From Rhodospirillaceae bacterium (GTDB taxonomy: Bacteria; Pseudomonadota; Alphaproteobacteria; UBA6615): a stretch of DNA of 63,719 nucleotides. The notes beneath the pieces are model-generated. The model saw nothing but the letters and a program-made list of their open reading frames with translations. It was not told where the DNA came from and ran no database searches. Shown here piece by piece: positions 13,165 to 34,551 of the stretch; position 1 is the stretch's first letter, and every line of letters begins with the position of its first letter. The position numbers and the translations under genes are program-made. The DNA lies in NCBI GenBank assembly GCA_002724635.1, contig PBPM01000037.1:1-63719 (forward strand), in the 5' to 3' direction.

Positions 13165-13209
13165 AGCCCGGTAGACAAGACACGATCACTCATTATCTCG
13201 GAACTAATA

Positions 13210-13617: not shown

Positions 13618-13730
13618 ATGGGCATGGCTCGAGCACATAGGCCCGCTCGGCCAGGATCCGGCATAGATCGAGCGCGCCTCGACTGAGGGGATATCCGTGT
13701 CAAAGGGCGGAAACGATCGGACCTCGCGGA

Positions 13731-14501
13731 TCAGTCCTCGTAGGTGTTGGAGAGGGTACCGATCCCATCGATGATGATATCGATGGTTGCACCGGGCCTC
13801 ATCGGCAGCGCGCCCGGGCCTGTCCCGCAAGCGATGAGGTCTCCTGGCTCGAGCGTCATCGACCGGGACAGATGGGCGACGATGTCCACCGGCGGCATGA
13901 ACAGGTCCGAGACCAAATAATTCTGCCGTTCGCGACCATTTAGCTCGGCACGGATCGCGCACTCGGAGACATCTGTATCCGTTACGATCGCGGGGCCGAA
14001 TGCGCCGAACGTGTCGAACCCCTTAGCCCGTGCCCATTGTGGAAAAGTTGGGTCGGTGCCAAGCAACTGCATCGCGGTCACGTCATTGACGCAGGTGAAA
14101 CCGAAGATGGCATCAGCGGCGGCGGCCGCGTCGACATTGCTGACGGTCTTCCCGATCACAATGCCGAGCTCGGCCTCGTAGATCACCCGGCCATCATAGT
14201 CGTCGGGCTTGCGGATAACGCCACCCGGCGCGAGGTATGTGGTCGACGGCTTCAAGAAAAAGAGCGGATACTCCGGCTCATCAAGCCCCTGCTTCTCCGC
14301 CGCGGACTTCGAATTATTCCATAGCGCAATGAACTTGCCGGGCACGCACGGCGTAAGCAACGTCACGTCACCCAGTGCCAACGTCTCGCCGGTAGGCGCG
14401 GCGTTCGCGAAAATGTCGCCATCATGTATTGCGATGTTGTCACCGCCCAACACCCCGATGCGCACTGCGCCTTCACTCTCAAATCGAACCCAGTTGGCCA
14501 A
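13731..14501 (-). CDS. Fumarylacetoacetate hydrolase (FAH) family protein
   Basis: A 256-residue FAHD-type hydrolase/isomerase acting on 2-oxo-acid or diketone intermediates. Typical segments are LFLKPSTTYLAPGG, VIYEAELGIVIGKTVSN (metal-binding Glu), FTCVNDVTAMQLLG (Asp) and DLIACGTGPGALPMRPG. The frame stays open to an ATG at 14555, but no SD precedes it. A TTG at 14501 is preceded by GAGGGGGGA at 5-6 nt and gives the conserved start region ANWVRFESEG, so I chose it. It converges on the RidA gene and diverges from the broken TPP-enzyme gene. Confidence 0.85.
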   Translation of the reverse strand: MANWVRFESEGAVRIGVLGGDNIAIHDGDIFANAAPTGETLALGDVTLLTPCVPGKFIALWNNSKSAAEKQGLDEPEYPLFFLKPSTTYLAPGGVIRKPDDYDGRVIYEAELGIVIGKTVSNVDAAAAADAIFGFTCVNDVTAMQLLGTDPTFPQWARAKGFDTFGAFGPAIVTDTDVSECAIRAELNGRERQNYLVSDLFMPPVDIVAHLSRSMTLEPGDLIACGTGPGALPMRPGATIDIIIDGIGTLSNTYED

Positions 14502-14641
14502 GACAATCCCCCCTCGTCTGACGCTCGACCCTTGATAACCGTTTCCTTGCCGCATTTCGAGTGTGCGGCATCGTCTTTACGGCCTTGTTCGAAGCTCATA
14601 CTTCGTTATCCCCGGAACTCCATGTCTGCTGGGAGAAACGG

Positions 14642-15046
14642 ATGGACGAGAGCACCACCGCCAAACGGATCGTCGACTGCCTAATCGAGGTGGGGACCGA
14701 GCATTTCTTCGGCCTAATCAGCGGTGCGGCGATGGATATTTACCGCGCGCTGCAAGACCGACAGGACAAGATCCGAGCCATGGTTCCTCGCGACGAGCAG
14801 ACGACGTCCTGCATGGCCGACATGTATAGCAAGCTTGCAGGCAAACTTGGCGTTTTTGCCGATCAGGGCGATTTCGCAGGCTCGACGGGTATGTTCTGCT
14901 TGATAGAGGCTTTCCTCGCCTCATCCCCTATGCTGGTGCTAACGGAGCTGTCCGACCACAACAAGTTCGTGACCCACAGCCCGATTCAGTCGAGCGCAGG
15001 GTGTACGCCCCGTATAGCGCACGCGGATCGACCGCTCACATATTGA
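14642..15046 (+). pseudogene. Truncated TPP-dependent enzyme, N-terminal domain only
   Basis: The reading frame starts well (GGGAG 6 nt before ATG, MDESTTAKRIVDCLIEVG) and encodes about 115 residues of a thiamine-diphosphate-enzyme N-terminal (PYR) domain. It has the conserved glutamate region (RDEQTTSCMADMYSK) and GVFADQGDFAGSTGMF. After SPIQSS the frame turns into unrelated residues and stops. A +1 shift at about 15000 gives VYAPYSARGS, resembling the expected GAYG-YD continuation, then similarity fades. Intact acetolactate-synthase-like enzymes have about 550 residues, so the middle and cofactor-binding domains are gone. Remnant of a carboligase/decarboxylase that once belonged to this cluster. 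Confidence 0.75.
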
Positions 15047-19297: not shown

Positions 19298-19627
19298 TGC
19301 CAATCATCGCGGGATCAGCTAGGACGCCGCCTCGCCGGTGCCCGCCGGATAGTAGGCCGCACCCAGCACGGGTGTGCCCTTCCCGTCCTGAACCAAGATC
19401 GCGCAACTCTTGCAGTCCTCGAGCATTAGATCAGACACGCCGAACGCCGCGCAGCTTTATCCCGCCGGGCATATGTGATTGATTCGAATTCAGTCATCTC
19501 GTTCAGATTCTCGTAATATTTATAAGGTTTTGTTAGCACTTCAGTCTCTACGACCGTGTTATAGCCGCGCTGTCCAAATCACAGATCACAAAATGGCGTC
19601 ATGTCCAATCAGAACTGGGAAAATCAT
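19298..19627. other. Intergenic region with a possible minus-strand coding remnant
   Basis: The left part, read on the minus strand from about 19440 to the stop at 19319, encodes a short Cys-rich stretch (AAFGVSDLMLEDCKSCAILV, then QDGKGTPVLGAAYYPAGTGE). It looks protein-like but has no proper start, and a stop codon lies immediately upstream. The family is not recognised. The right part (19480-19600) is AT-rich and probably holds the cytochrome c' promoter. Confidence 0.3.
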
Positions 19628-20095
19628 ATGTTCACCGTTCGCAAGCTTAAAAGAGCAGGCCTAGTCACCGGCGCGGCCCTCGCCCTCGCCGTCACATTCA
19701 CGTTATTCAACAGCAACGAGGTGTGCGCCGACAATCACGCCGATCGGAATACCGATATGAAGTCGCTGGGTCGCGCCATGAGGGCGCTCGGGGCAGCCGT
19801 CGCGGCCGGCAACACTGCTGACGCAGAAGCTGCCGCAAAAAAGATCAGCGCAATCGCTTCGGAGGTGCCTGAGCTGTTTAATGGTGGTAAGCCCGGCAAA
19901 AGCCGGGCTAAGCCGGAGATCTGGACCAACTTCGCCGACTTCACCGCCAAGGCCAATGCAATGAAGGCCAAGGCCGACGGTGTAGCCGCCGATGCGGCCG
20001 CGGGCAAGCTCAGCTCCGATCCGAAAGCCGTCGTTGGTAAGATCGGCGCGACCTGCGGCGCTTGCCACAAGGTCTATCGGGGACCCAAAGTCTAA
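19628..20095 (+). CDS. Cytochrome c' (class II c-type cytochrome)
   Basis: A 155-residue exported heme protein. A signal peptide (MFTVRKLKRAGLVTGAALAL, cleaved near VCA-DN) precedes a four-helix-bundle domain. The single heme motif CGACHKVY is at the extreme C-terminus, the diagnostic arrangement of cytochrome c'. These periplasmic proteins bind NO/CO or act as electron shuttles. The ATG at 19628 is preceded by GGGA and gives a canonical signal; an ATG at 19601 would add nine residues. A strong terminator follows at once. Confidence 0.88.
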   Translation: MFTVRKLKRAGLVTGAALALAVTFTLFNSNEVCADNHADRNTDMKSLGRAMRALGAAVAAGNTADAEAAAKKISAIASEVPELFNGGKPGKSRAKPEIWTNFADFTAKANAMKAKADGVAADAAAGKLSSDPKAVVGKIGATCGACHKVYRGPKV

Positions 20096-20123
20096 CGGTG
20101 TCCGAAAAATCGGCTTCGAAGAT

Positions 20124-20150
20124 CGCCCGGCTCTGCCGGGCGTTTTTTTT
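20124..20150 (+). terminator. Rho-independent terminator after cytochrome c'
   Basis: Perfect stem CGCCCGGC (20124-20131) / GCCGGGCG (20135-20142) with a TCT loop, followed by eight T residues. It separates the cytochrome c' gene from the diheme cytochrome gene that starts only 15 bp later. Confidence 0.92.
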
Positions 20151-20164
20151 GCTAAGGTCGAGAC

Positions 20165-21028
20165 ATGAGAAATCTAATCAGGATGCTGAACCTGCTGGCC
20201 GTAGCGGCCCTTGCCATCCCGACAACCGCGCAGTCGGGTAACCCGGCGCGCGGCGAATACATGCTCGCCGCGGCCGGCTGCATCGCCTGCCATACGGTGC
20301 CCGAGGGAGGCGCATTCCTAGCCGGCGGACGCAAACTCAAGACGGATTTCGGAACCTTCTTCACGCCCAACATCACGCCCGACCTCGAAACCGGCATCGG
20401 CAACTGGAGCGAGGAGGACTTCGTCCGCGCGCTGAAGGAAGGAAAAGCGCCAGACGGGAGCCGCTACTATCCGACTTTCCCCTACACCTCCTACACACGT
20501 ATGACGCGCCGGGACATGCTCGACCTCAAGGCCTATCTCGACGAGGTCCCGGCGGTAAACAATCCGGTGCCCAAACACGACCTCCACTTCCCATTCGGGA
20601 TACGTGCGAGCATGGTCGGCTGGCAGATGATGTTCTTCGACGACGCGCCCTTCGAACCGGACCCCGACCGAAGTAAAACTTGGAACCGCGGCGCCTATCT
20701 GGTGAACGGCCCCGGACATTGCGGTGAGTGCCATACACCACGCAATATTCTGGGCGCGATCGATTCCGACCGCCCGCTCTCCGGCAACACAAGCGGCCCG
20801 GGCGGCGCACCGGTACCGAACATCACGCGAGGCCCCGGCGGAATTAGAGATTGGAACGAGGACGACATCGTCTCGGCCCTCGAGATTGGCCTGCTACCGG
20901 ACGGTGACTTCGTTGGCGGCGCGATGACCGACGTCATCGAACAAAGCACGGGCAAGCTGACGGTCGATGATCTACAAGCCATTGCGAAATATCTGTCGTC
21001 ATTGCCGCCGCTCGACAGCGCGCGGTAG
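20165..21028 (+). CDS. Diheme cytochrome c
   Basis: A 287-residue periplasmic cytochrome with a signal peptide (MRNLIRMLNLLAVAALAIPT, cleavage near TAQ-SG). It has two class I heme sites: AAAGCIACHTVPEGG near residue 40 and GPGHCGECHTPRNILG near residue 185, with FTPNITPDLETGIGNW and VPNITRGPGGIRDWNEDD as matching distal segments of the two halves. This tandem type (COG2010) serves as electron acceptor for alcohol, gluconate or sulfur-compound dehydrogenases. Neighbouring DUF1330 and cytochrome c' genes do not tell which. The promoter must lie in the few bases around the preceding terminator, or transcription reads through it. Confidence 0.88.
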   Translation: MRNLIRMLNLLAVAALAIPTTAQSGNPARGEYMLAAAGCIACHTVPEGGAFLAGGRKLKTDFGTFFTPNITPDLETGIGNWSEEDFVRALKEGKAPDGSRYYPTFPYTSYTRMTRRDMLDLKAYLDEVPAVNNPVPKHDLHFPFGIRASMVGWQMMFFDDAPFEPDPDRSKTWNRGAYLVNGPGHCGECHTPRNILGAIDSDRPLSGNTSGPGGAPVPNITRGPGGIRDWNEDDIVSALEIGLLPDGDFVGGAMTDVIEQSTGKLTVDDLQAIAKYLSSLPPLDSAR

Positions 21029-21060: not shown

Positions 21061-21369
21061 ATGGCCGCCTACTGGCTTGCACGCGCAAAGATTAACGACC
21101 CGGTCGAGTACAAGAAGTACACCGACCACATCCCAGACATCCTCGAAAAGTACAATGGGAGGGTGTTTGCGCGCGGCGGCGAGTACAAGGTGCTGGAAGG
21201 TGAAACGCCGTATGAGCGCTTCATCGTCATCGAGTTCGACTCGATGGCCGACGCCGAGTCCTGTTTCAATTCACCCGAATATGTTGCGGCGGCGAAATTC
21301 CGACGCATCCCCGGCATCGCACAAAACGAACTGGTGATCGTGGACGGCGGCGACGCGACACCGCGCTAG
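21061..21369 (+). CDS. DUF1330 family protein
   Basis: A 102-residue dimeric alpha-beta barrel-like protein. [20 protein letters not shown] and [20 protein letters not shown] with YVAAAKFRR match DUF1330. SD GGAGA is 6 nt before the ATG. Function is not established for the family. Its TAG stop overlaps the TAG of the convergent mtnA gene in the shared tetranucleotide CTAG (21366-21369). Confidence 0.88.
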
Positions 21370-22469
21370 ACAGTACCTACGCGTTCCGGAAACAGACCCG
21401 CCAGCCCTTCGCGGCTGGCGGCGCAGACGCCGCGCTCGGTTATCAGGCCGGTCACAAGGCGCGCCGGCGTAATATCAAACGCATAGTTGGCGACCGCCGA
21501 GCCGTCGGGTGTGAGCTGAACAGTCACAACTTCGTCGTTAGAATCCTTGCCCGCGATATGGGTGACTTCCTCCGGGCCGCGTTCCTCGATCGGGATGTCG
21601 CGAACGCCGTTGGTGATAGTCCAGTCGATCGTCGGAGACGGAAGACCGACATAGAAGGGGACATTATTGTCCCGGGCTGCGAGCGCTTTGAGATAGGTGC
21701 CGATCTTGTTCGCCACGTCTCCGGAGGCCGCGGTGCGGTCTGTCCCAGTGATGCAGAGGTCCACGAGTCCATGCTGCATCATGTGACCCCCGGCATTATC
21801 TGCCACCACGGCATGCGATACTCCGTGGCACCCGAGTTCCCAAGCCGTCAGCGCAGCCCCTTGGTTGCGCGGTCGCGTCTCGTCCACCCAAACATGTACC
21901 GGAATCCCGAGATCATGGGCCTTATAGATCGGCGCAAGCGCGGTGCCCCAGTCCACCGTCGCGAGCCAGCCGGCGTTGCAGTGGGTCAGGATGTTCACCG
22001 GCCCCGAGCCGCCGCGCGCTTCGTAGACGGCGCGAATCACCTCGAGCCCGTGATCGCCGATGGCGCTGTTGATTGCGACATCCTGGTTACAGATGTCCGC
22101 CGCTCGCGCATAGGCCAGATCGACCCGCGCGTCGGCTGGCTGCGACCAAAGGCGTGCGCACATATCGTCGAGCGCCCAGCACAGGTTCACCGCCGTGGGG
22201 CGCGTCGCCGTCAAAACGGCGTGAGCACGCTCGACTCCTGCGTCCGTGTTGTCCTCCCGCATTGCCAGCGCCATACCATAGGCTGCCGCAGCACCGATCA
22301 GCGGGGCGCCACGCACCAGCATGTCGCGGATCGCGCGCGCTACATCGTCCAGTGATCTCAGCACGGCCACTTCGAAGCGATGAGGAAGCCGGGTCTGGTC
22401 AATGATCTCGACCGTCTGCGCGTCTTCGGCAAGCCAGATGCTGCGGTAGGCTTCACCGTCGATTTTCAT
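21366..22469 (-). CDS. mtnA: Methylthioribose-1-phosphate isomerase
   Basis: A 367-residue aldose-ketose isomerase (eIF2B-like fold) converting 5-methylthioribose 1-phosphate to methylthioribulose 1-phosphate in salvage of methylthioadenosine. Substrate-loop [16 protein letters not shown] is intact, as are the catalytic cysteine Cys164 ([12 protein letters not shown]) and aspartate Asp244 ([20 protein letters not shown]). The ATG overlaps the stop of tusA by 4 nt, so the pair is translationally coupled. No other methionine salvage gene (mtnB, C, D, K) is in the window. The pairing with a sulfur-carrier gene next to a sulfur-oxidation operon is unusual. Confidence 0.92.
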
Positions 22470-22708
22470 TTGTCATCCGCCTTGCGGATACGGAAGGTAT
22501 AGACCCCATCCGCCGCATGCGATTCCAGCAGCGCATCCCCTGTGGCATCGCAGAAATGCGCAAAGTCTCCGACCGACCCCGGATCCGTCGCGATCACCCG
22601 CAGGGTGGCACCGGCGTGCATCGTCTTGAGCGCCTTCTTCGCCTTCAGAACCGGCAGCGGACATTTTAACCCACTCGTGTCGAGCTGTTGTTCTTTGTCA
22701 GAAGTCAT
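22466..22708 (-). CDS. tusA: TusA/SirA-family sulfur carrier protein
   Basis: An 80-residue sulfurtransferase of the TusA family, which carries persulfide sulfur on a cysteine to downstream acceptors. The signature [19 protein letters not shown] places the active Cys at residue 16 in a CPxP motif. The C-terminal [11 protein letters not shown] is typical. It is first in a two-gene unit with mtnA (ATGA overlap) and faces the bigR-like gene across 54 bp. TusA-like proteins deliver sulfur either to tRNA thiolation or, in sulfur oxidisers, to the oxidative pathway; the neighbourhood favours the latter. Confidence 0.9.
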
Positions 22709-22726
22709 TTCATTTCCCAGTTCACG

Positions 22727-22756
22727 TTGACCGGTTTTCGAATATACGAATACACT
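22727..22756 (+). promoter_or_regulatory. Candidate promoter of the bigR-soeABC operon
   Basis: TTGACC (22727-22732) and TACACT (22751-22756) are separated by 18 nt and stand a few bases before the ATG at 22763, so the transcript would have almost no leader. The dyad at 22736-22751 lies between the two boxes. Position and dyad support it, but the -10 is only a moderate match. Confidence 0.4.
22736..22751. promoter_or_regulatory. Candidate BigR/SqrR operator (TTTC-N8-GAAT dyad)
   Basis: The stretch between the divergent tusA and bigR genes contains TTC-N8-GAA flanked as TTTC...GAAT, within an imperfect inverted repeat TTCGAATATACGAA (12 of 14 positions symmetric). From memory, the persulfide sensor SqrR of Rhodobacter binds ATTC-N8-GAAT; this differs at one base. 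Its place between both promoters fits autoregulation and control of both units. Confidence 0.5.
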
Positions 22757-22762
22757 CAGCCG

Positions 22763-23086
22763 ATGGACGTTGAGGTACTTCAGGAAAAAGCCGGACAGGC
22801 AAGCAAGCTCCTCAAGTCGCTCGCCAACGAACGACGCCTGCTGATCATGTGCTATTTGAGTGAGGGAGAAAAGTCCGTCAGCGAGCTCGAGCCGCTGATC
22901 GGAGTTAACCAGTCCGCCCTGTCACAGCATCTTGCGCGGCTCCGCCGCGGGCATCTCGTGACCACACGCCGTGAGGCCCAGACTATTTATTACTCGATCC
23001 GAAGCTCGGAAGCCGAAGCGGTGCTCGGTACCCTCTATAAACTCTATTGTGCCGAGGCCGATGACGACACCGTCGGACCGGCATGA
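22763..23086 (+). CDS. bigR: ArsR-family persulfide-sensing repressor, BigR/SqrR type
   Basis: A 107-residue winged-helix regulator. ANERRLLIMCYLSEGEKSVS starts the fold, and SALSQHLARLRRGHLVTTRR is the recognition helix region. Two cysteines, Cys30 and Cys96 (LYKLYCAEAD), are 66 residues apart, exactly the spacing of the redox pair in BigR (Cys42/Cys108) and SqrR (Cys41/Cys107). In those proteins hydrogen sulfide-derived persulfides link the pair and release the DNA. No arsenic-type CxC metal site is present. The frame is open from 22688, but the ATG at 22763 fits the family start. It heads an operon of sulfur genes. Confidence 0.88.
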   Translation: MDVEVLQEKAGQASKLLKSLANERRLLIMCYLSEGEKSVSELEPLIGVNQSALSQHLARLRRGHLVTTRREAQTIYYSIRSSEAEAVLGTLYKLYCAEADDDTVGPA

Positions 23087-23114
23087 CAACGATCTGGATC
23101 GGGATGCACCCCTC

Positions 23115-23450
23115 ATGAATGATGGCAGCGCACGGGTGGTTATGCTCTCGGCGGAAGAGGTACGTGCGCGCATCGCCGAGGGTACAGCCTATCTGGTTGA
23201 CGTGCGCGAGCCACATGAGAATGCGAAACTGCGGATCGCCGGCGCGCAGCTCGTTCCGCTTTCGCAGTTTGATGAAGCACGAATCATACCGTCTGACGGC
23301 CAGGACTTGATCCTGCACTGCCGTATCGGACAGCGCTGCGGCGTTGCTGCGGACCATCTTTGCGCCGCGGGCTATCCAAGCACGATCTACCGCATGCGCG
23401 GGGGCATCCTCGAATGGATGTTCGCGGACTACCCAATAGAGACCGGCTAA
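23115..23450 (+). CDS. Single-domain rhodanese (sulfurtransferase)
   Basis: A 111-residue rhodanese. The domain reads from SAEEVRARIAEGTAYLVDVR (CH2A-like) to the active-site loop LHCRIGQRCG with Cys69, and ends in RMRGGILEWMFADYP. It would transfer sulfane sulfur between persulfide carriers, with the TusA encoded next door as a plausible partner. The frame is open upstream: an ATG at 23061 overlaps bigR by 26 nt and has GAGG close by, while the one at 23115 gives a standard-length protein. Both are possible. Confidence 0.88.
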   Translation: MNDGSARVVMLSAEEVRARIAEGTAYLVDVREPHENAKLRIAGAQLVPLSQFDEARIIPSDGQDLILHCRIGQRCGVAADHLCAAGYPSTIYRMRGGILEWMFADYPIETG

Positions 23451-23473
23451 AAGATGGCACGCGCGATCCTAGC

Positions 23474-24400
23474 ATGACCATTTACCTTCCCATCGCCGAG
23501 ATGTCAGTCGACGTCTTTCTGCTTCTGTTGCTAGGCGGGGGGGTCGGCTTCCTGTCTGGCCTTTTTGGTGTCGGGGGCGGATTCTTGATGACGCCCTTGC
23601 TTATCTTCATCGGCATCACCCCCGCCGTGGCCGTGGCGACCGAAGCCAATCAGATCGTCGCGGCATCGGTGTCCGGAGTGCTCGCCCACATGCGCCGGCG
23701 CAATGTCGACTTCAAGATGGGTATGGTCTTGACGGTCGGGGGCTTCGTCGGATCAGGACTTGGTGTGTGGATATTCACCTTCCTGCGGGAAATCGGCCAA
23801 GTAGATCTCCTTGTGCAACTTAGCTACGTGGTATTCTTAGGAATCGTCGGCTTCCTGATGCTTTTCGAGAGTGCCCGGGCCATATTCCGCAGCCGAACCG
23901 GCACCGCGACCCGAGGCAAGCTGCACCAGCACACCTGGCTGCACGGCCTTCCGTTCAAGATGCGTTTCCGGCGGTCGCGGCTCTATATTAGCGCGCTACT
24001 GCCGCTTGGCATTGGCTTCTTCGTGGGCATCCTCGCAGCGGTCATGGGCGTCGGGGGCGGGTTCCTCATGGTGCCGGCGATGATCTATCTGCTGGGCATG
24101 CCCACGTCCGTCGTGGTGGGCACCTCTCTATTCCAGATCATCTTCGTGACAGCCAACGTCACATTCCTCCAAGCAGTGAATAACCAGACCGTCGACGTCG
24201 TTCTGGCCCTGCTGCTGCTCACCGGCGCCGTCATCGGCGCCCAACTTGGCACCAAGGCCAGCGGTCGCCTCCGCGGCGAGGAACTGCGCGGTCTGCTGGC
24301 TCTCATGGTTCTGAGTGTGTCCGTAAAGATCGGGATCGATCTCGTCTCGACCCCCGAAGATGTCTATTCAATCAGCGAAACCCCCGGATTCGGCCTGTGA
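23474..24400 (+). CDS. TSUP-family membrane exporter (TauE/SafE type), probable sulfite or organosulfur exporter
   Basis: A 308-residue integral membrane protein with about eight hydrophobic segments and the two internal glycine-rich repeats of the TSUP family: GFLSGLFGVGGGFLMTPLLI near residue 22 and GILAAVMGVGGGFLMVPAMI near residue 190. TSUP proteins move sulfite, sulfoacetate, thiosulfate or related anions. Location between a persulfide sensor and sulfite dehydrogenase genes suggests relief of sulfite or thiosulfate stress. Start ATG at 23474 (MTIYLPIAEM) gives the conserved first segment; the frame is open from 23360. Confidence 0.88.
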   Translation: MTIYLPIAEMSVDVFLLLLLGGGVGFLSGLFGVGGGFLMTPLLIFIGITPAVAVATEANQIVAASVSGVLAHMRRRNVDFKMGMVLTVGGFVGSGLGVWIFTFLREIGQVDLLVQLSYVVFLGIVGFLMLFESARAIFRSRTGTATRGKLHQHTWLHGLPFKMRFRRSRLYISALLPLGIGFFVGILAAVMGVGGGFLMVPAMIYLLGMPTSVVVGTSLFQIIFVTANVTFLQAVNNQTVDVVLALLLLTGAVIGAQLGTKASGRLRGEELRGLLALMVLSVSVKIGIDLVSTPEDVYSISETPGFGL

Positions 24401-25170
24401 TCGCCGCAACGCACATCCGTCGTCATCTATGCGCCAGCATGGTGATTGTGGCAGCGCTGGTGCTCCTGCAAATCTCGGCCGACGCCGCACGTGACGACGC
24501 GCTTACGGTCGACCTGAGCCAAGACCTGATCGGCATCAGCACCGGATTCAGCGGTGCCGATGTGCTGCTCTTTGGTACAACGGAAGGAGAGGGCGACGTT
24601 ATCGTGGTCGTGCGCGCGCCCGACAGCCAAGTGATCGTCCGACGTAAGGACCGGTTGGCCGGAATCTGGGTCAATGCAGAAGAACAGATCTTCGACGATG
24701 CGCCGGGCTTTTACCATGTTGCCGCATCCGCACCGCTCGAAGGGCTGCTGCCGGACCCCGTGCTCGATGCAAGACAGATCGGCACCCGCCACATCGCCAT
24801 CCAACCGCATTCCTTGCTGTCCACAGGCAGGGAGCAGGACTTCCGCGCGGCGCTGATACGCAACAAACAGCGCAGCGGGCTCTACTCCAGTGGTGTGGAG
24901 AAAGTGAGCTTCCGCGGTGAGAGGCTGTTTCGCACGCGGGTCGCGCTTCCGGCGAATGTCCCCACCGGCGACTACAGTGTGACCGTCTATCTGGTTAACG
25001 ACAGGGAGATAACGAGCATCTCTGAAACTGGCCTGAGCGTTCGCAAGGTGGGTTTCGAGGCAAAGCTCACCGAGTTTGCATTCGAGCAAGCGCCGATCTA
25101 TGGATTGATCGCTATCATCATCGCGTTGATCGCCGGCTGGTTCGCAGGCTTTGTGTTCCGTAAGGTTTGA
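24397..25170 (+). CDS. TIGR02186/Alph_Pro_TM family membrane-anchored periplasmic protein
   Basis: A 257-residue protein that begins at GTG overlapping the exporter stop (GTGA). A signal peptide (CASMVIVAALVLLQISADA-AR) precedes a beta-rich periplasmic domain (LTVDLSQDLIGISTGFSGAD, then VLLFGT...). A single C-terminal transmembrane helix (YGLIAIIIALIAGWFAGFVF) ends in RKV. This family is largely alphaproteobacterial and regularly follows a TSUP gene, but has no known activity. It probably assists the exporter in the periplasm. Confidence 0.88.
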   Translation: MIAATHIRRHLCASMVIVAALVLLQISADAARDDALTVDLSQDLIGISTGFSGADVLLFGTTEGEGDVIVVVRAPDSQVIVRRKDRLAGIWVNAEEQIFDDAPGFYHVAASAPLEGLLPDPVLDARQIGTRHIAIQPHSLLSTGREQDFRAALIRNKQRSGLYSSGVEKVSFRGERLFRTRVALPANVPTGDYSVTVYLVNDREITSISETGLSVRKVGFEAKLTEFAFEQAPIYGLIAIIIALIAGWFAGFVFRKV

Positions 25171-25694
25171 TGATCATGTCTGATGCGCCCGCCGTCTCTC
25201 CCGCTCCCGAAGGCAACCGTCCCACTGGCGAACGCGCCGCTGTGTTTTTGGTTGTCGTGGATAATTCTCCGGAGATGCGGGTGGCCCTGCGCTGGGCAAG
25301 CCTGCGGGCGCGGCGAACGGGCGGCAAGGTCGGCCTAGTTCGCGTCATCCGGGAAGCGGATTTCCAGCACTGGGCCGCCGTCCGCAATCTGATGCAGTCC
25401 GAGGCGCGCGAGGAGGCCGAGCAACTGCTGCAGGAACACGCCGCCGAAGTCTTCCGGCTGCATGGGGGCATGCCCACCCTGTATCTTCGCGAGGGCGAAA
25501 CGAAATCCGCCGTGGTCGAACTGATTCAGGAGGACAAGGACATTCGAATCTTGGTGCTCGCGGCCTCGACCGGCCGGCGGGGGCCCGGCCCCCTCATCAC
25601 CCATCTGACCAAAAAGGTAATTGGCCAGCTGCGTATCCCCGTCACCATCATCCCCGGCGGACTGTCCGACGAACAAATCGACACCTTGGTATAG
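25170..25694 (+). CDS. Universal stress protein (UspA) family
   Basis: A 174-residue single Usp domain: VFLVVVDNSPEMRVALRWAS at the first strand and the C-terminal VIGQLRIPVTIIPGG. The nucleotide loop normally written G-x2-G-x9-G-S/T appears altered (ASTGRRGPGPLITHLTKKVI), so ATP binding is uncertain. Its ATG shares one base with the previous stop (TGATG); an ATG two codons on is an alternative. The gene is fused into the sulfur operon, with soeA starting 10 nt later. Confidence 0.85.
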   Translation: MIMSDAPAVSPAPEGNRPTGERAAVFLVVVDNSPEMRVALRWASLRARRTGGKVGLVRVIREADFQHWAAVRNLMQSEAREEAEQLLQEHAAEVFRLHGGMPTLYLREGETKSAVVELIQEDKDIRILVLAASTGRRGPGPLITHLTKKVIGQLRIPVTIIPGGLSDEQIDTLV

Positions 25695-25704
25695 TATTCC
25701 GCTT

Positions 25705-28653
25705 ATGCCCGATGATATCCGCCCCGACGATCGTTACGAGACGGTCGACACGTGCCCCGCCGTCTCCGACGAGGTGAAATCAACCACCTGTTACATGTGT
25801 GCATGCCGTTGCGGCATAAATGTGCATCTGAAGGACGGCGCGGTTCGCTACATCGAAGGGAACCGCGAGCATCCGGTTAACAAGGGCGTCCTATGCGCCA
25901 AAGGTTCCGCCGGCATCATGCAGCATTATTCGCCGGCCCGGCTGTCCCAGCCGCTGCGGCGGGTCGGCCCGCGTGGATCGGGCGAGTTCGAGCCCATCAG
26001 CTGGGAAGAGGCACTCGATACCGCGACGAAATGGCTATCGGAGATTCGTGGCCGCGACCCGCGGAAGCTTGCTTTCTTCACCGGCCGCGACCAAAGCCAG
26101 TCCCTGACCGGCTTCTGGGCCAGTCAGTTCGGCACCCCCAATCATGCCGCGCATGGCGGATTCTGCTCGGTCAACATGGCCGCTGCGGGGATCTACACGA
26201 TCGGCGGCTCCTTCTGGGAGTTTGGTGAGCCGGACTGGGATAACACACGCTACTTCATGATGTTCGGCGTTGCCGAAGACCATGATTCGAACCCGATCAA
26301 GATGGGCCTCGGCAAGCTCAAAACCATGGGTGCGGCGAAGTTCGTGTCGGTCAATCCAGTACGGACCGGGTACTCAGCAATCGCTGACGAATGGGTCGGG
26401 ATCCGACCCGGCACGGACGGCCTGTTCGTCATGTCACTGATTCATGAGCTAGTCCGCACAGGCAGGGTGGACCTCGAGTTTCTCGCCCGCTACACGAATG
26501 CCCACTGGCTCGTCCGCCAAACGCCCGGCTGCGCCGATGATGGCCTGTTCGTTCGAGGCTACGACGGTAAGCCGCTTGCCTATGACCGTAAAAGCGGCGA
26601 GCTAGTAGACGCGAATCGTACGGATATTTCGCCCGCCATGCGTGGCCAGTTCCCGCTGCACGACGCCATATCAGGAGACGGCGGCGCGGACACGAAGGCC
26701 GTGCCCGTGTTCCAAATCCTGCTCGACCGGTATCTGGACGCCCGATACAGCCCTGACGCTATCGCCGGTCAGACCGGGATTGACGCAGACCGCATTCGGC
26801 GCATCGCGGCCGAGCTGGCGGATGCGGCCTTCGAGCAGGAAATCTCACTCGACATCGAATGGACGGACTGGGCCGGGCGCAAGCATGACAAGATCGTCGG
26901 GCGCCCCGTTTCGATGCATGCAATGCGCGGGATTTCGGCTCATTCCAACGGTTTCCAGACCTGCCGGGCGATCCATGTACTGCAGATGCTGCTCGGCAGC
27001 ATCGACTGCCCGGGGGGCTTTAGGTACAAGCCGCCCTTCCCGCGCCCTGCACCGCCTGGTCCCAAGCCAGCCGGCAAGCCCCATCAGGTCTCGGCACGGA
27101 ATCCGATGGCCGGCCCGCCGCTCGGCTTCGTGACGGGCCCCGAGGATCTGCTGGTCGACGACAGTGGCGAGGCGCTGCGGATCGACAAGGCCTATTCCTG
27201 GGATGCGCCGCTCGCCGCTCACGGGATGATGCATATGGTCATCCGCAACGCTTGGGCTGGAGACCCATACCCGATCGATCTCCTGTTCATGTTTATGGCG
27301 AACATGAGCTGGAACTCATCGATGAATACCACCGAAACCGCTGAGATGCTGACGGCAATGGATCCGGAAACAGGAGAGTACAAGATTCCCAAGATCATCT
27401 ACTCCGACGCCTTCCAGTCCGAGATGATTGCCTATGCCGACCTGATCCTGCCCGATACCACCTATCTGGAACGCTGGGACTGCATCAGCCTCCTCGACCG
27501 GCCGATCTGCAGCGCGGACGGGCCGGCGGATGCGATCCGCCAGCCGGTGATCGCGCCGGACCGCGACGTACGCCCGTTCCAGGACATACTGATAGAGCTG
27601 GGCGCGCGTCTCGGACTGCCGGCGTTCACGACCGATACCGGCGAGCCAAAGTTTCCCGGTGGCTACCCGGACTACCTAACCCATCACGAACGCACACCGG
27701 GGATCGGGCCCCTTGCGGGCTGGCGGGGCGAGGATGGTCAGTCCCACGGACATGGTCCGCCGAACGAAAGCCAGCTCGACCGGTATGTGGAGAATGGCTG
27801 CTTCTGGAGCGAGGAGTTCGCGCCGGATGAGCGCTACTACAAGCACAGCAACCGTGCCTATCTCGTCAAGGCGGCGCGCATGGGCTGGATCTCTTCGGCC
27901 GACCCGATCGTCCTGCAGCTCTACAGCGAGCCCCTGCAGCGCTTCAAGCTGGCGGGGCAGGGATTCGGCGATGTCGTGCCGCCAGTTCGCTACCGTGAAC
28001 GCATCGCCGAGACCTTCGACCCGTTGCCGATCTGGTACGCGCCCTTCGAGGACGCGCATACCGACCCGCAGGCCTACCCGATCCACGCCCTGACCCAGCG
28101 TCCGATGGCGATGTACCACTCCTGGGGATCACAGAATGCGTGGCTCCGACAGATTCACGGCTGGAACAAGCTCTACATGAACCGTAGCAGCGCGGAAGGT
28201 CATGGCCTCACCGACGGCGATGCCGTGCGCGTCGAGAGCCCCTATGGCAGCATCCGGGCAACCATTGCGCTGATGGAGGGCTGCAATGGCGACACCGTGT
28301 GGACATGGAACGCGATCGGCAAGAAGCGTGGCGCATGGAACCTCTCGGACGACGCACCGGAATCCAACAAGGGCTTCCTGCTCAACCACCTCATCACCGA
28401 CCTGCTGCCGCCGAAAGACGGCTACCGGTTCTCCAACACCGATCCGATCACCGGCCAGGCGGCCTGGTTCGACCTGCGGGTGCGCGTCATCAAGGATGAT
28501 GGAACTGGCGGTGCGACTACGGACGAGGCGCTGCGCACGAAGGCGGTGCCGCGCGCACCCGGGGTGGACGAAGCCCCCAAGCGCTTGCGCTTCGGTTCAC
28601 GGTTCCTGCCGGGCGGAAGCTGGCGGCGCAATCGCGGAGGTGCAAACGAATGA
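25705..28653 (+). CDS. soeA: Sulfite dehydrogenase (quinone), molybdopterin subunit SoeA
   Basis: A 982-residue molybdo-bis(MGD) oxidoreductase that would oxidise sulfite to sulfate on the cytoplasmic face and pass electrons through SoeB and SoeC to quinone. The N-terminal [4Fe-4S] site is Cys29-x2-Cys32-x3-Cys36-x27-Cys64 (TTCYMCACRCG and GVLCAKG). Cys154 in GGFCSVNMAA sits where the Mo-ligating residue is expected. No Tat signal is present, consistent with the cytoplasmic SoeA rather than exported PsrA/PhsA-type relatives. The C-terminal molydopterin-binding domain starts near PIHALTQRPMAMYH. The ATG at 25705 was preferred to the open frame from 25621, which overlaps the stress-protein gene. 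Operon partners and sulfur context support SoeA; a thiosulfate or polysulfide reductase is the alternative. Confidence 0.88.
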   Translation: MPDDIRPDDRYETVDTCPAVSDEVKSTTCYMCACRCGINVHLKDGAVRYIEGNREHPVNKGVLCAKGSAGIMQHYSPARLSQPLRRVGPRGSGEFEPISWEEALDTATKWLSEIRGRDPRKLAFFTGRDQSQSLTGFWASQFGTPNHAAHGGFCSVNMAAAGIYTIGGSFWEFGEPDWDNTRYFMMFGVAEDHDSNPIKMGLGKLKTMGAAKFVSVNPVRTGYSAIADEWVGIRPGTDGLFVMSLIHELVRTGRVDLEFLARYTNAHWLVRQTPGCADDGLFVRGYDGKPLAYDRKSGELVDANRTDISPAMRGQFPLHDAISGDGGADTKAVPVFQILLDRYLDARYSPDAIAGQTGIDADRIRRIAAELADAAFEQEISLDIEWTDWAGRKHDKIVGRPVSMHAMRGISAHSNGFQTCRAIHVLQMLLGSIDCPGGFRYKPPFPRPAPPGPKPAGKPHQVSARNPMAGPPLGFVTGPEDLLVDDSGEALRIDKAYSWDAPLAAHGMMHMVIRNAWAGDPYPIDLLFMFMANMSWNSSMNTTETAEMLTAMDPETGEYKIPKIIYSDAFQSEMIAYADLILPDTTYLERWDCISLLDRPICSADGPADAIRQPVIAPDRDVRPFQDILIELGARLGLPAFTTDTGEPKFPGGYPDYLTHHERTPGIGPLAGWRGEDGQSHGHGPPNESQLDRYVENGCFWSEEFAPDERYYKHSNRAYLVKAARMGWISSADPIVLQLYSEPLQRFKLAGQGFGDVVPPVRYRERIAETFDPLPIWYAPFEDAHTDPQAYPIHALTQRPMAMYHSWGSQNAWLRQIHGWNKLYMNRSSAEGHGLTDGDAVRVESPYGSIRATIALMEGCNGDTVWTWNAIGKKRGAWNLSDDAPESNKGFLLNHLITDLLPPKDGYRFSNTDPITGQAAWFDLRVRVIKDDGTGGATTDEALRTKAVPRAPGVDEAPKRLRFGSRFLPGGSWRRNRGGANE

Positions 28654-29387
28654 CCAGGCTTCCCGAATCACGCGACGGCCGTAAGCTCGGTCTTGTGATC
28701 GACCTCGACATCTGCGTCGGGTGTCACGCCTGCGCCGTCAACTGCAAGGAATGGAACAAAGGTGGCCATTCCGCTCCGCTGACGGACGAAGACCCCTACG
28801 GGGCCGACCCGCTGGGCGTCTGGTTCAACCGCGTACACAGTTTCGAGGCTGGCGACGGCGACAGCGGACGGACGGTGCATTTCCCACGCAGCTGCCTGCA
28901 TTGCGAGGAGCCGGCCTGCGTTACGGTCTGCCCGACCGGGGCCTCTTACAAGCGCGAGAGTGACGGCATCGTGTTGGTCAACGCTGACAGCTGTATCGGC
29001 TGCAAGCTCTGCTCCTGGGCCTGCCCGTATGGCGCGCGCGAATATGACTATGCCGACGGCGTGATGAAGAAATGCACCCTGTGCATCGACCGGATAGAAA
29101 ACCAAAACCTACCCGAAGAGGATCGGGTGCCGGCCTGCGTGTCCACCTGTCCGGCGTCCGCGCGGCACTTCGGCGACTTGGGCGATCCGGAATCGGATGT
29201 AAGCCGACTTGTCGATGAACGTGGCGGCTACGACCTCATGCCGGAGTTGGGCATGAAGCCCGTGAACAAGTATCTACCACCGCGCCCCGGGTCCCGGCAC
29301 GAACAGGCGCCCCCCCTACCCGAAGCCGCCCCCGGTGAGACCGGAAGCGCGTTCCTCGACTGGGTCGACCGGATGCTGTCCCGTTAA
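28650..29387 (+). CDS. soeB: Sulfite dehydrogenase (quinone), iron-sulfur subunit SoeB
   Basis: A 245-residue electron-transfer protein with four ferredoxin-type Cys clusters: CVGCHACAVNCKEWN, CLHCEEPACVTVCPTGASY, CIGCKLCSWACPYGA and CTLCIDRI with PACVSTCP. These bind four [4Fe-4S] centres as in DmsB/NrfC-type subunits. It overlaps soeA by four bases (ATGA), so equal translation is likely. The C-terminus (about residues 195-245) is proline-rich and extends past the last cluster. Confidence 0.9.
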   Translation: MTRLPESRDGRKLGLVIDLDICVGCHACAVNCKEWNKGGHSAPLTDEDPYGADPLGVWFNRVHSFEAGDGDSGRTVHFPRSCLHCEEPACVTVCPTGASYKRESDGIVLVNADSCIGCKLCSWACPYGAREYDYADGVMKKCTLCIDRIENQNLPEEDRVPACVSTCPASARHFGDLGDPESDVSRLVDERGGYDLMPELGMKPVNKYLPPRPGSRHEQAPPLPEAAPGETGSAFLDWVDRMLSR

Positions 29388-29406
29388 TCGTCAACATACG
29401 CGAACG

Positions 29407-30354
29407 ATGAACCCCGCATACTCCGTCATTTTCTTCACAACCGCTTCGGGCGCGGGATACGGCTCCATCGTCTGGCTCGTGGTCCTCGCGCTGCTGGGCA
29501 TCGTCCCCCTCACCCCGGCGTTGGGTATCACGGTCTTCCTCGTGTCCCTCGCGCTCATCACGGCGGGGCTACTCTCTTCCACCCTCCACCTCGGACACCC
29601 CGAACGCGCATGGCGCGCGCTCAGCCAATGGCAAACCTCCTGGCTAGCGCGCGAGGGGATCGCCGCGATCGTGACATATATCCCCATCTTGGTTTTCGCC
29701 GTCGGCTCCCTGTTCTTCGCCGGCCTGAACTTCATCTGGATCTGGGCAGGGCTGATCGGCGCCGGTCTTTGCATCGTCACCGTGGGCTGCACCGGAATGA
29801 TCTATGCGAGCCTGCGCGCGATACCCCGCTGGTACATGCCATTGGTCATGCCGCTCTACATCGCCTTCGCCCTGTCCACCGGCGCCGTCCTCCTGATTGC
29901 CATCGTATCCTTTTTTTGGGTGACACCCGGCGTACTCGCCTGGTCCGCGGCAATCGTTACGCTAGCGACCTGGGCGGCGAAGATCGTGTATTGGCGCCAG
30001 ATCGACACTGCGGCGCCCATTGCGACGGCAGAATCCGCGACGGGCCTCGGCAACATCGGCCAGGTTCGGCTGCTCGAATCCCCGCACACCAACGAAAATT
30101 ACGTGATGCGCGAAATGGGTTATGTGATCGCCCGAAAACATGCCGCACGGCTGCGTAAGATCGCGCTTATGGTCGGCGGCGTGGCGACAGCACTAGCCCT
30201 TGTGGTCGCAGGCGTTCTGCCGGCACCTTACGCGACTCTAGCCAGCGGCGTGGCGCTGATCAGCACAGTGGTCGGCATTCTGCTGGAACGCTGGCTTTTC
30301 TTCGCAGAGGCGCAGCATGTCTCATCGCTCTATTACGGCGCAGCCAGCGTCTGA
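29407..30354 (+). CDS. soeC: Sulfite dehydrogenase (quinone), membrane anchor SoeC (DmsC family)
   Basis: A 315-residue polytopic membrane protein of the DmsC type that would anchor SoeAB and reduce the quinone pool. It begins MNPAYSVIFFTTASGAGYGS, and about eight hydrophobic segments follow. The conserved STLHLGHPERAWRALSQWQT with SWLAREG near residue 58 is a hallmark of SoeC/DmsC. Start is the ATG 19 nt after soeB; the frame is open earlier but overlaps soeB. No clear terminator was found downstream. Confidence 0.9.
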   Translation: MNPAYSVIFFTTASGAGYGSIVWLVVLALLGIVPLTPALGITVFLVSLALITAGLLSSTLHLGHPERAWRALSQWQTSWLAREGIAAIVTYIPILVFAVGSLFFAGLNFIWIWAGLIGAGLCIVTVGCTGMIYASLRAIPRWYMPLVMPLYIAFALSTGAVLLIAIVSFFWVTPGVLAWSAAIVTLATWAAKIVYWRQIDTAAPIATAESATGLGNIGQVRLLESPHTNENYVMREMGYVIARKHAARLRKIALMVGGVATALALVVAGVLPAPYATLASGVALISTVVGILLERWLFFAEAQHVSSLYYGAASV

Positions 30355-30672
30355 GGGGCGGTACGGAGTCTCCACCAACAATGTTCGCCTAATCAGCGGG
30401 GCACAATCACCAGTCACGTCAAACCGTAAAGTTGGCTCCAACGAACGCCAGGAAACGGTCTCCGTGGGCCGTGATCTAACTAAGATGTGGGCTGGCTCCC
30501 GGCCGGCAGCATCGATCGAGTACAACAGCGCCATTCTCGTCGACCCACGCAGGTCGGGGGCGGCGATGCGGGTGCTGCCGTTAGGCTCAAGAGTTTCAGA
30601 CCCGCGGGCCGGCGCGCCATCCCGTACCATGCGGAATTTAGGAAGTCTTGAACGACGAGGGTGCGCCGTCTG
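30355..30672. other. Intergenic region between soeC and the MlaF-like gene
   Basis: About 320 bp between convergent genes. Both strands are open over much of it (102-119 codons), but neither frame has a good SD or a recognisable domain. I see no terminator hairpin with a T-tract and no repeat. Confidence 0.4.
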
Positions 30673-31458
30673 TTAACCCGCAAGCGCCGGCATCCGGATC
30701 GGCCCGTCGAGCGACTGCGTCACGAATTGTCGGACATAGGCATTATCGGACCCGTCGAGTTCAGCCACGGGGCCGGACCAAACAACACGCCCTTCATGCA
30801 ACATCAGGACCGTGTCGGCGATCCGCCTGACTACAGCCAAGTCGCTCACGATCGAAATCGCGCTCGCGCCGAGATCATCCACCCGGTCATTGATCAGGTC
30901 GCTGATAACATTACTCATGATCGGGTCGAGTCCTGCCGTCGGCTCGTCCAGAAACAGGATATCGGGGTCGGTAGCGATCGACCGCGCGAGCCCCACGCGC
31001 TTCTGCATACCGCCAGAGAGTTCGGCCGGCGACAGGTCAGCCGTATCGGGCAGGAGCCCGACCTTCTCCAGCTTAGCGACCGCCATCTCCCGCGCCGCCG
31101 ACCGCGAGAGATGCTGTTCGTGCAACAGCCGGAACGCGACATTCTCCCAGACGGTCAGGCTGTCGAACAGGCCCTGGCGCTGAAACAGCACCCCGAACCG
31201 CCGCATCCACGTCATACGGTCGCCCGCCGGCATACCGACGGTTTCGCCGCCGTCCACCTTGATCGAGCCGGCATCCGGTTCGACCAGACCCAGTATGCAT
31301 TTCAACAGCAGCGACTTGCCGCTGCCGGATCCGCCGATCAGGACCAGCGACTGTCGGGGGTGCAGCGTCAGGTCGACCGCATCCACCGCGCGCACCCCGT
31401 CGAAGCTACGGGTAACGCCCGAAAGGCGAATTTTCGCGATGTCCGTCCCGGCGGTCAC
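30673..31458 (-). CDS. ABC ATPase of the MlaF (lipid asymmetry) type, lacking the H-loop histidine
   Basis: A 261-residue ATPase most like MlaF/Ttg2A, which drives phospholipid transport with MlaE and MlaD. Walker A is GGSGSGKSLLLK, signature LSGGMQKRVGLARS and Walker B ILFLDEPTAGLDP. The helical LTVWENVAFRLL region and LMLHEGRVVWSGP are MlaF-like. The switch (H-loop) histidine expected in the pattern T-H-D-M is replaced: here the sequence reads SIVSDLAVVRRIAD. GTG start overlaps the stop of the aldehyde dehydrogenase gene (GTGA). mlaE, mlaD, mlaC and mlaB homologues are absent from the window, so its partners are unknown and activity may be reduced or regulatory. Confidence 0.82.
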   Translation of the reverse strand: MTAGTDIAKIRLSGVTRSFDGVRAVDAVDLTLHPRQSLVLIGGSGSGKSLLLKCILGLVEPDAGSIKVDGGETVGMPAGDRMTWMRRFGVLFQRQGLFDSLTVWENVAFRLLHEQHLSRSAAREMAVAKLEKVGLLPDTADLSPAELSGGMQKRVGLARSIATDPDILFLDEPTAGLDPIMSNVISDLINDRVDDLGASAISIVSDLAVVRRIADTVLMLHEGRVVWSGPVAELDGSDNAYVRQFVTQSLDGPIRMPALAG

Positions 31459-33569: not shown

Positions 33570-34000
33570 CCGTAATTCCTCTTCTTCTCGGGGTCTTCCA
33601 CGCGCGTGAACCCGGGCAAACGATAGGGTTGAGGTGTAGCGTCGTCGAGCCAGCGATTGCAACAGGCAGGCGAAAAGATGATCACTTTATGGGCAGATGA
33701 TGAAGCGAACTGGTGGCTCTGGCTTCGGACGCAAGGCGCAACGGCTTTCATATAACGAACTGTCATGGCCGGCACGTTTTATCGGCAGCGTCACACTTGT
33801 CCGTTGCGCAGCTTGACCATTCCGATTTTGACGGTATTTGCATGTATAAAAACAAAATTTATTGTATTTTATAACATAAATGTGATCAAAATACGAATGC
33901 CTAAGTAAATTTGATGTTAAATAAGAAAATTATAATCATCTTTTTCTAAATTTTTTCCGAAAAGGCGTCGTGTAATTCGATTTTTACTGTATTCATCGCC
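33570..34000. other. AT-rich intergenic region without a recognisable gene
   Basis: The span from about 33820 to 33990 is far richer in A and T than the surroundings (runs such as AAAACAAAATTTATTGTATTTT). It contains an imperfect AT-rich inverted repeat (AAAACAA / TTGTATTTT) at about 33850-33872. No reading frame there has protein-like composition. It may be a promoter-rich or transferred segment upstream of the small membrane protein gene. Confidence 0.4.
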
Positions 34001-34031
34001 TTGACAGATTTCGGTCATGTTGTGTGATACT
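34001..34031 (+). promoter_or_regulatory. Candidate sigma-70-type promoter for the small membrane protein
   Basis: A perfect -35 box TTGACA (34001-34006) and GATACT (34026-34031, 4 of 6 to the consensus) with a 19-nt spacer. The predicted start of transcription falls at about 34038, the first base of the tandem palindrome region. Confidence 0.4.
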
Positions 34032-34037
34032 TTTCGT

Positions 34038-34104
34038 CGGCTACAACATATCGTGGCCGCTTGGGCTTCTCGCCGGCTACAATATATCGTAGCCGCTTGG
34101 GCTT
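34038..34104. repeat. Two tandem 31-bp repeats, each containing a 20-bp palindrome
   Basis: CGGCTACAACATATCGTGGC at 34038 and CGGCTACAATATATCGTAGC at 34074 begin two near-identical 31-bp units with a period of 36 bp, each ending CGCTTGGGCTT. Each unit contains GGCTAC-N8-GT(A/G)GCC, and the second is symmetric at 18 of 20 positions around ATATAT. They could be paired operators or two leader RNA hairpins for the gene starting at 34136. Confidence 0.75.
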
Positions 34105-34135
34105 TAGGTCTGAAACAACCCAGAAGGGGAAAAGC

Positions 34136-34375
34136 ATGCCTGATGGTATGATGGAAAGAGCCAAGAAATGGATAGGTCAGGTGACCGAACTCGGGCTCCT
34201 GCTGATCGCATTGGCGATCGTGCTGGATATACTCGTGGTCGGCGATCTGCCGTTCTTCGGCGGCGTGGTTGCCGAACTGATCACCCTGATCGACACGCTC
34301 GGTGAAAACGGCATAGTCGGACTGATCGCGGTCGCGATCATTCTCTGGCTGTTTGCCAAGCGTAATCCGGGTTAG
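34136..34375 (+). CDS. Small membrane protein with two transmembrane helices, 79 residues
   Basis: The ATG has AAGGGGA at 6 nt. The protein begins MPDGMMERAKKWIGQVTE, followed by a hydrophobic helix LGLLLIALAIVLDILVVG. A short loop with DLPFFGGVVAELITLIDTLG follows, then a second helix IVGLIAVAIILWLFAKR. I do not recognise a family. It has its own promoter, a pair of palindromes in the leader and a terminator, so it is a single-gene unit under specific control. Adjacent genes give no hint of function. Confidence 0.65.
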   Translation: MPDGMMERAKKWIGQVTELGLLLIALAIVLDILVVGDLPFFGGVVAELITLIDTLGENGIVGLIAVAIILWLFAKRNPG

Positions 34376-34436
34376 AGAGCTTACCCCGTCGCCCCGGCCG
34401 CGGTCGGGTGCGACGGAAACATTTTGTAGTTTTTGG

Positions 34437-34468
34437 AACCGCCCCAGGCAAATGTCCGGGGCGGTTTT
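34437..34468 (+). terminator. Rho-independent terminator after the small membrane protein
   Basis: AACCGCCCC (34437-34445) pairs perfectly with GGGGCGGTT (34458-34466) over a 12-nt loop, and the arm ends in TTTT. Confidence 0.75.
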
Positions 34469-34551
34469 CCGTTGCGATGACCGACCGCGGCACTTGAACG
34501 CAGGGTAGCGGGTAGCCATGCTGCGGTCATCACTTGCAAGGGATCACCAGC

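Follow-up and report, generated by a model that had tools for sequence, protein, structure and literature searches.

What is a protein of the uncharacterised TIGR02186 family doing in the middle of what looks like a sulfite oxidation operon? The question is raised by a 63,719-nucleotide contig of a Rhodospirillaceae bacterium (PBPM01000037.1 of assembly GCA_002724635.1, hereafter the window), in which genes for a BigR/SqrR-like repressor, a rhodanese, a TauE-type exporter, a TIGR02186 protein, a Usp-fold protein and a SoeABC-type molybdoenzyme follow one another, with a tusA-like gene and mtnA on the other side of the repressor. A first-pass annotation of this DNA had placed TIGR02186 within the soeABC unit. 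We find instead that it belongs with tauE, and not with soeABC. Most descriptions of TSUP-family exporters treat them as single proteins. What is new is that an uncharacterised family pairs almost obligately with one such exporter, which we read as a two-subunit transporter whose parts would touch and whose substrate would be sulfite. The name TIGR02186 is used here for the whole PF09608 family.

The pairing is clearest in 289 sampled genomes from the class Alphaproteobacteria, among which PF09608 was found in 189, a tauE orthologue in 191 (E ≤ 1e-40, a threshold of our own choice) and SoeA in 73 (E ≤ 1e-150). Both tauE and PF09608 are present in 188 genomes and neither in 97, leaving four discordant cases: one with PF09608 alone (G061) and three with tauE alone (G176, G228 and G250), and two of these three lone matches (E 8e-45 and 1e-42) stand out as much poorer than all the others and could be paralogues. 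PF09608 is also carried by 69 of the 73 SoeA genomes. Setting aside the four that lack it and five whose places are unlisted, a comparison by hand puts the two no more than 5 kb apart in 17 of 64 genomes, with that of the window included and many of the genomes fragmented. Across a phylum sample of 299 genomes, whose non-class share is not listed, the family occurs in 66, all of the same class, and it was found in none of 14 control genomes.

Gene order was compared in three sets of loci. The first comprises 60 class loci around PF09608: 17 with SoeA nearby (from 16 genomes besides that of the window), three included for other reasons, and 40 others taken from high up in the list of PF09608 matches once the SoeA-linked loci were removed, hence not a random sample. 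The second holds 20 further loci with SoeA and no PF09608 nearby, and the third 80 named loci, the best 80 of 155 relatives from a TIGR02186 scan. Seven records are common to the class and named sets, and L031 (genome G208) and L116 are one record. Among the 132 distinct TIGR02186 loci, tauE lies close upstream in 125, and in 117 of these an in-frame start codon of TIGR02186 shares bases with the tauE stop (4 nt in 75 loci, 1 nt in 42), the other eight having gaps of 1-10 nt; the count took the start nearest the stop, which favours overlaps, and the loci include close relatives. By chance, in-frame overlaps of the two genes should be a minority. In the class set tauE is directly upstream in 55 of 60 loci (the tandem copy in L051 counted), the exceptions being one at a contig edge (L038) and L043, L092, L098 and L107, whose genomes (G200, G043, G093 and G131) each keep a tauE orthologue outside the fetched stretch. 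Adjacency holds in 77 of the 80 named loci; tauE is 2.3 kb away in L125, the TIGR02186 frame is broken in L176, and tauE was not found on the 5.4-kb contig of L141. TIGR02186 is followed by a usp gene in 41 of the 60 class loci and, among named loci, in 75 of 79.

The window's TauE has multiple membrane helices by hydropathy, and its clear PF01925 match bears out the exporter named by the first-pass annotation; sulfite is its putative substrate. For TIGR02186 (Alph_Pro_TM in Pfam), an AlphaFold model was built with 50 sequences, those of 49 of the 79 usable named loci and the window (mean pLDDT 83.6, pTM 0.69). It predicts a signal helix at residues 3-26, a beta-sandwich at about 36-217 with a helical insert at 114-159, and helices at 220-230 and 232-256, the last hydrophobic; in outline, an Ig-like domain in the periplasm is predicted, followed by a membrane helix at the C-terminus. 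In both alignments K84, W91 and N93 do not vary and R82 hardly does, and R86 comes close to invariance in the first alone; that these residues form an anion site is speculation. Universal stress proteins that bind ATP carry the motif G-2X-G-9X-G(S/T). This motif was found in none of 118 matched Usp copies from the cassettes, duplicates included and within the aligned stretch, where a conserved GPGPL stretch takes its place; the proteins still satisfy PF00582 and form an atypical subfamily.

From these observations one may venture a general proposal, for which we judge the case evenly balanced: that alphaproteobacterial TauE-type TSUP exporters are obligate two-subunit systems in which TIGR02186 gates the anion or receives it, that a Usp which does not bind ATP is a frequent third part, and that sulfite dehydrogenase and persulfide sensing joined this core repeatedly. 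Several observations weigh against reading the pair as a two-subunit sulfite exporter, the first of them being the company that the core keeps. Of the 40 class loci that lie apart from SoeA, 33 carry none of the genes tusA, bigR and rhodanese in the 4 kb around TIGR02186 (seven have at least one), and in 57 of 79 named loci none of tusA, bigR, rhodanese or soeA is nearby (22 have one), so that the neighbours give no evident sign that the pair serves sulfur metabolism in general. Many named genomes, those of Azospirillum, Nitrospirillum and Stella among them, instead have tauE-TIGR02186-usp inside a complete or partial housekeeping run, glnD-murJ-trpS-...-nifU-tsaB-rimI; nifU is near the core in 43, trpS in 29 and glnD in 18 of the 80 named loci (these genes, like ccdA below, were named by eye from sequence). 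TSUP proteins are moreover known to carry several anions. A two-part TauE-TIGR02186 transporter whose main substrate is something other than sulfite (sulfate, thiosulfate or an organic anion, for example), sulfite being a local adaptation, would suit these neighbourhoods. Yet pairing with soeABC, bigR and tusA is repeated, and on a Salipiger abyssi plasmid (L194, 1535-6678) tauE-TIGR02186 comes directly after a sulfatase-like gene and genes of a tripartite tricarboxylate transporter; we regard a substrate other than sulfite as possible but improbable.

Some loci bear on the history of the core. In L044 and L047 soeABC lies between usp and nifU, and in L035 and L042 it follows usp within such a housekeeping run. 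In a tree of SoeA, sequences linked to the core and unlinked ones interleave with 10 changes, at least six of them forced by well-supported branches, which argues that soeABC joined or left the core repeatedly; a single clade of the 20 linked SoeA rows was rejected. TauE-TIGR02186, often with Usp, would then be an older alphaproteobacterial core to which soeABC and bigR-rhodanese are optional additions in some lineages.

Further points count against the two-subunit reading. The window's protein falls short of the TIGR02186 model (170.9 against a cut-off of 255.25), the matches to its predicted fold are generic Ig-like, and the association of tauE with PF09608 (Fisher p = 2.6e-72) takes no account of shared descent. 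In L107 (9092-12700, genome G131), bigR-TIGR02186-usp stands beside a gene for a YeeE/YedE-type sulfur transporter (PF04143) with no tauE between, and the genome has its tauE-like gene, interrupted by an internal TGA, at another place. TIGR02186 could be a co-expressed periplasmic factor (a chaperone, an envelope-stress or a redox protein) that is needed alongside this TauE without contacting it. Its separation from tauE in L107, L092, L098 and L043 would fit, as would a gene, CcdA-like by eye, that follows TIGR02186 in four class loci (L055, L057, L068 and L104), hinting at periplasmic thiol chemistry. The near-perfect co-occurrence and the predominance of 1- or 4-nt overlaps speak against a factor of this kind, which we think unlikely.

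Taking TauE and TIGR02186 as two subunits of one exporter, what is the operon around them in the window? All ten genes named by the first-pass annotation are in place and adjacent, with mtnA-tusA divergent from the run bigR to soeC (Table 1).

Table 1. Genes and candidate control elements of the sulfite-related run in the window
Feature	Position	Strand	Basis
mtnA, S-methyl-5-thioribose-1-phosphate isomerase	21366..22469	-	NF004326 and TIGR00512 above cut-off
tusA-like sulfur carrier, CPLP motif	22466..22708	-	PF01206 above cut-off
Sigma-70-like promoter TTGACC-N18-TACACT ahead of bigR	22727..22756	+	Pattern scan
Candidate BigR/SqrR operator TTTC-N8-GAAT, within promoter spacer	22736..22751	+	Pattern match
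bigR/sqrR-like ArsR-family repressor, Cys30 and Cys96	22763..23086	+	phmmer
Rhodanese, single-domain, active loop CRIGQR	23115..23450	+	PF00581, motif
tauE, TSUP-family exporter (predicted)	23474..24400	+	PF01925, 171.6 bits (cut-off 32.6)
TIGR02186/PF09608 protein	24397..25170	+	PF09608, 253.5 bits (gathering cut-off 24.5)
usp, Usp-fold protein without canonical ATP motif	25170..25694	+	PF00582
soeA, molybdopterin subunit	25705..28653	+	Profile match, motif, tree
soeB, iron-sulfur subunit, 16 Cys	28650..29387	+	PF13247, Cys count
soeC, DmsC-type membrane anchor	29407..30354	+	PF04976 above cut-off; NrfD slightly under cut-off

The spacing is as tight as first described, with plus-strand overlaps of 4 nt (tauE/TIGR02186), 1 nt (TIGR02186/usp, TGATG at 25168-25172) and 4 nt (soeA/soeB), a 4-nt overlap of mtnA with tusA and 54 bp between tusA and bigR; only the remaining plus-strand gaps needed correction, from 10-26 to 10-28 nt. 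The starts given for rhodanese and usp are the preferred ATG codons, and family searches ran from 23109 and 25173 with frames unchanged. Past soeC the next long gene-like open reading frame (ORF), an ABC ATPase by sequence, is on the opposite strand. The window is contig C22 of a genome of 137 contigs and 2.9 Mb, with given values of 100% completeness and 6.15% contamination.

The run bigR-rhodanese-tauE-TIGR02186-usp-soeABC was found again, with divergent tusA, in L031 (= L116, of the window's family) and L112, and without tusA in L033 and L034, both of one other family; recurrence in two relatives and, without tusA, in a second family places the order beyond chance. Three further loci, L062, L133 (Oceanibaculum pacificum) and L142, have the same layout from tusA to usp with soeABC missing. 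The operon is a lineage-specific assembly of known parts.

Its regulator matches HlyU, BigR chains and the ArsR-family structures 6o8l-6o8o, which we take to be SqrR, and its two cysteines align with those of the solved relatives in all three alignments displayed. Both sensor cysteines are present in 7 of 12 distinct BigR homologues of such modules, the window counted, including 5 of 5 beside soeABC; neither is left in L133 and L142, the first is missing in L062 and the second in L102, and L067 is undecidable. In L133, L142 and L062 the signal is probably different, despite the shared tusA-bigR-rhodanese-tauE layout. The candidate operator has one mismatch to the published SqrR site ATTC-N8-GAAT (PMC9774250). 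Its core pattern matches once in the window, against 1.88 expected in the shuffled window, while an extended pattern occurs once genome-wide and its reversed control not at all. A corresponding operator and promoter are legible upstream of bigR in L112 and L031/L116, and the operator was not recognised by eye upstream of the other bigR loci. The weight of the site therefore comes from its position in the 54-bp gap, its presence in those relatives and the single extended match. The promoter-like sequence that encloses it was the single match of a scan of 22450-30700 (8.25 kb), a result that alone proves nothing, since shuffles average 2.0.

Outside this lineage bigR is not a general partner of soeABC: it was found in none of the 20 fetched SoeABC loci unlinked to TIGR02186, and soeABC is absent from the fetched stretch of seven distinct bigR-containing loci. 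Separation of this kind had been named at the outset as grounds for refuting the proposed coupling, which fails as a general rule but not for the window's lineage.

Where would the sulfite come from? The first-pass annotation had drawn a route from persulfide through rhodanese and TusA to sulfite and on to SoeABC, for which this unit would suffice and in which mtnA would be coupled to the rest. The genes are indeed all adjacent. Rhodanese and TusA transfer sulfane sulfur, however, and we know of no conversion of persulfide to sulfite by the two together; the unit holds no sulfane-sulfur oxidising enzyme, and neither SoxB nor DsrA has a match anywhere in the genome. A 345-residue protein on another contig (C25) matches, in the Protein Data Bank (PDB), the persulfide dioxygenase-rhodanese fusion BpPRF (full length, over residues 1-339, E 1.9e-64) and the persulfide dioxygenase ETHE1 (E 3.1e-62); no sulfur cluster is visible around it by eye. 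Persulfide can therefore probably be converted to sulfite in this organism, though not by rhodanese and TusA alone, and the likely sulfite maker is this unlinked fusion or the rhodanese cleaving thiosulfate. Divergent tusA adjoins the module in other families too (L045, L046, L061, L062 and L133, for example), while mtnA next to tusA was seen only in the window and L112 among the 80 named loci, and in none of the 60 class loci, and mtnA is probably an incidental neighbour. A self-contained route with mtnA as a member is consequently very improbable.

The molybdoenzyme appears to be of the SoeABC kind, as had been proposed. SoeA carries a C-X2-C-X3-C-X27-C motif and no twin-arginine signal, and scores below the cut-off of every NCBIfam family listed for it. 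A tree was built from 44 rows: 41 SoeA from Alphaproteobacteria and one each of PhsA, TtrA and DmsA, with three duplicate records and one contig-edge fragment excluded. In it the 41 SoeA form one group (SH-aLRT 100) apart from the other three; the outgroup branches are very long, and no characterised SoeA is among the rows. An Azospirillum plasmid orthologue (65% identity), accompanied by soeBC, adjoins xsc, whose product releases sulfite, and in L090 xsc lies about 4 kb from soeA; an ETHE1-like gene (by eye) is near soeA in 3 of the 20 unlinked SoeA loci. That the enzyme is rather a polysulfide, thiosulfate or tetrathionate reductase is suggested by its best NCBIfam and PDB matches, to PhsA/thiosulfate reductase, but is highly doubtful in view of the PhsA score (226 against 694), the separate grouping, the missing twin-arginine signal and the orthologue beside xsc.

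We therefore favour, as fairly probable, a persulfide-controlled sulfite-disposal operon in which TIGR02186 is an obligate TauE subunit. Reduced BigR would occupy TTTC-N8-GAAT inside the promoter and hold the run, transcribed as one operon, in check; as sulfane sulfur accumulates, its cysteines would be bridged and repression lifted. Cytoplasmic sulfite, arising from the unlinked dioxygenase-rhodanese fusion or from thiosulfate cleavage by the rhodanese with TusA accepting the sulfane sulfur, would be oxidised by SoeABC, with electrons passing to quinone, and the surplus would leave through TauE. TIGR02186 would be the exporter's obligate second subunit, anchored in the membrane, facing the periplasm and translationally coupled to TauE, and the atypical Usp a frequent, cytoplasmic third member. 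Some scores count against this operon as they do against the pair. The regulator misses the BigR equivalog (NF040642, 90.8 bits against a cut-off of 155); it is accordingly named BigR/SqrR-like and placed outside that equivalog. Its two cysteines and the SqrR-like operator in the promoter support the BigR/SqrR type that was first proposed. The carrier meets PF01206 and misses the TusA equivalog PRK00299 (62.6 against 78), and is for that reason called TusA-like. The C25 fusion reaches no NCBIfam cut-off.

Parts of this arrangement are familiar. As described (PMC5823870), the bigR operon of Xylella fastidiosa and Agrobacterium likewise unites a dithiol ArsR repressor, a sulfurtransferase and a TauE-type sulfite exporter; it includes the dioxygenase Blh, whereas the window has TIGR02186, Usp and SoeABC in the run and its dioxygenase fusion elsewhere. 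SoeABC of Allochromatium and Aquifex, as described (PMC8076601), has the same three-subunit make-up, with a cytoplasmic-type SoeA without twin-arginine signal, a four-cluster SoeB and an NrfD/DmsC-like SoeC; the window differs in that these genes share their run with an exporter and a sensor of the persulfide type. Sulfite oxidation by SoeABC is a shared feature, yet in Ruegeria pomeroyi, where a gene list (PMC4334477) gives soeABC (SPO3557-3559) with pta (SPO3560) and tauR (SPO3562), and in Azospirillum TSH58, with soeABC beside xsc, it is linked to sulfonate breakdown and not to bigR; the best Xsc-like match in the window's genome, by contrast, is only 29% identical. In Hyphomicrobium denitrificans, as reported (PMC12423496, PMC10451225), sHdrR and SoxR control thiosulfate oxidation and sHdr, and efficient sulfite-oxidising enzymes are lacking; these regulons share with the window related ArsR sensors, TusA, rhodanese and TauE for sulfite export.

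A testable role is thereby proposed for PF09608, an uncharacterised family in 189 of 289 class genomes. If the proposal is right, TSUP exporters have a two-part form, and assays of this TauE alone could fail without its partner. In the operon, one persulfide-type switch may govern sulfite oxidation and export together.

Some minor observations concern other parts of the DNA. Upstream of the run and near it, window positions 19601-21028 (+) encode two cytochromes, by eye a cytochrome c' and one of type c that carries two CxxCH motifs. At 14561-15046 lies a gene for a 161-residue protein whose sole match is the N-terminal domain of a thiamine-diphosphate enzyme; in size it resembles a single part of a decarboxylase made of two subunits. 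On the minus strand, 13204-13962 and 33917-34519 hold ORFs (252 and 200 residues) that have no Pfam match at E 1e-4 and may not be genes. On the Pseudomonas plasmid pBYT5-2 (L202, 466-6758), genes for an ArsR regulator and YeeE come after an operon that resembles one for tetrathionate reductase, possibly another ArsR-switched sulfur unit.

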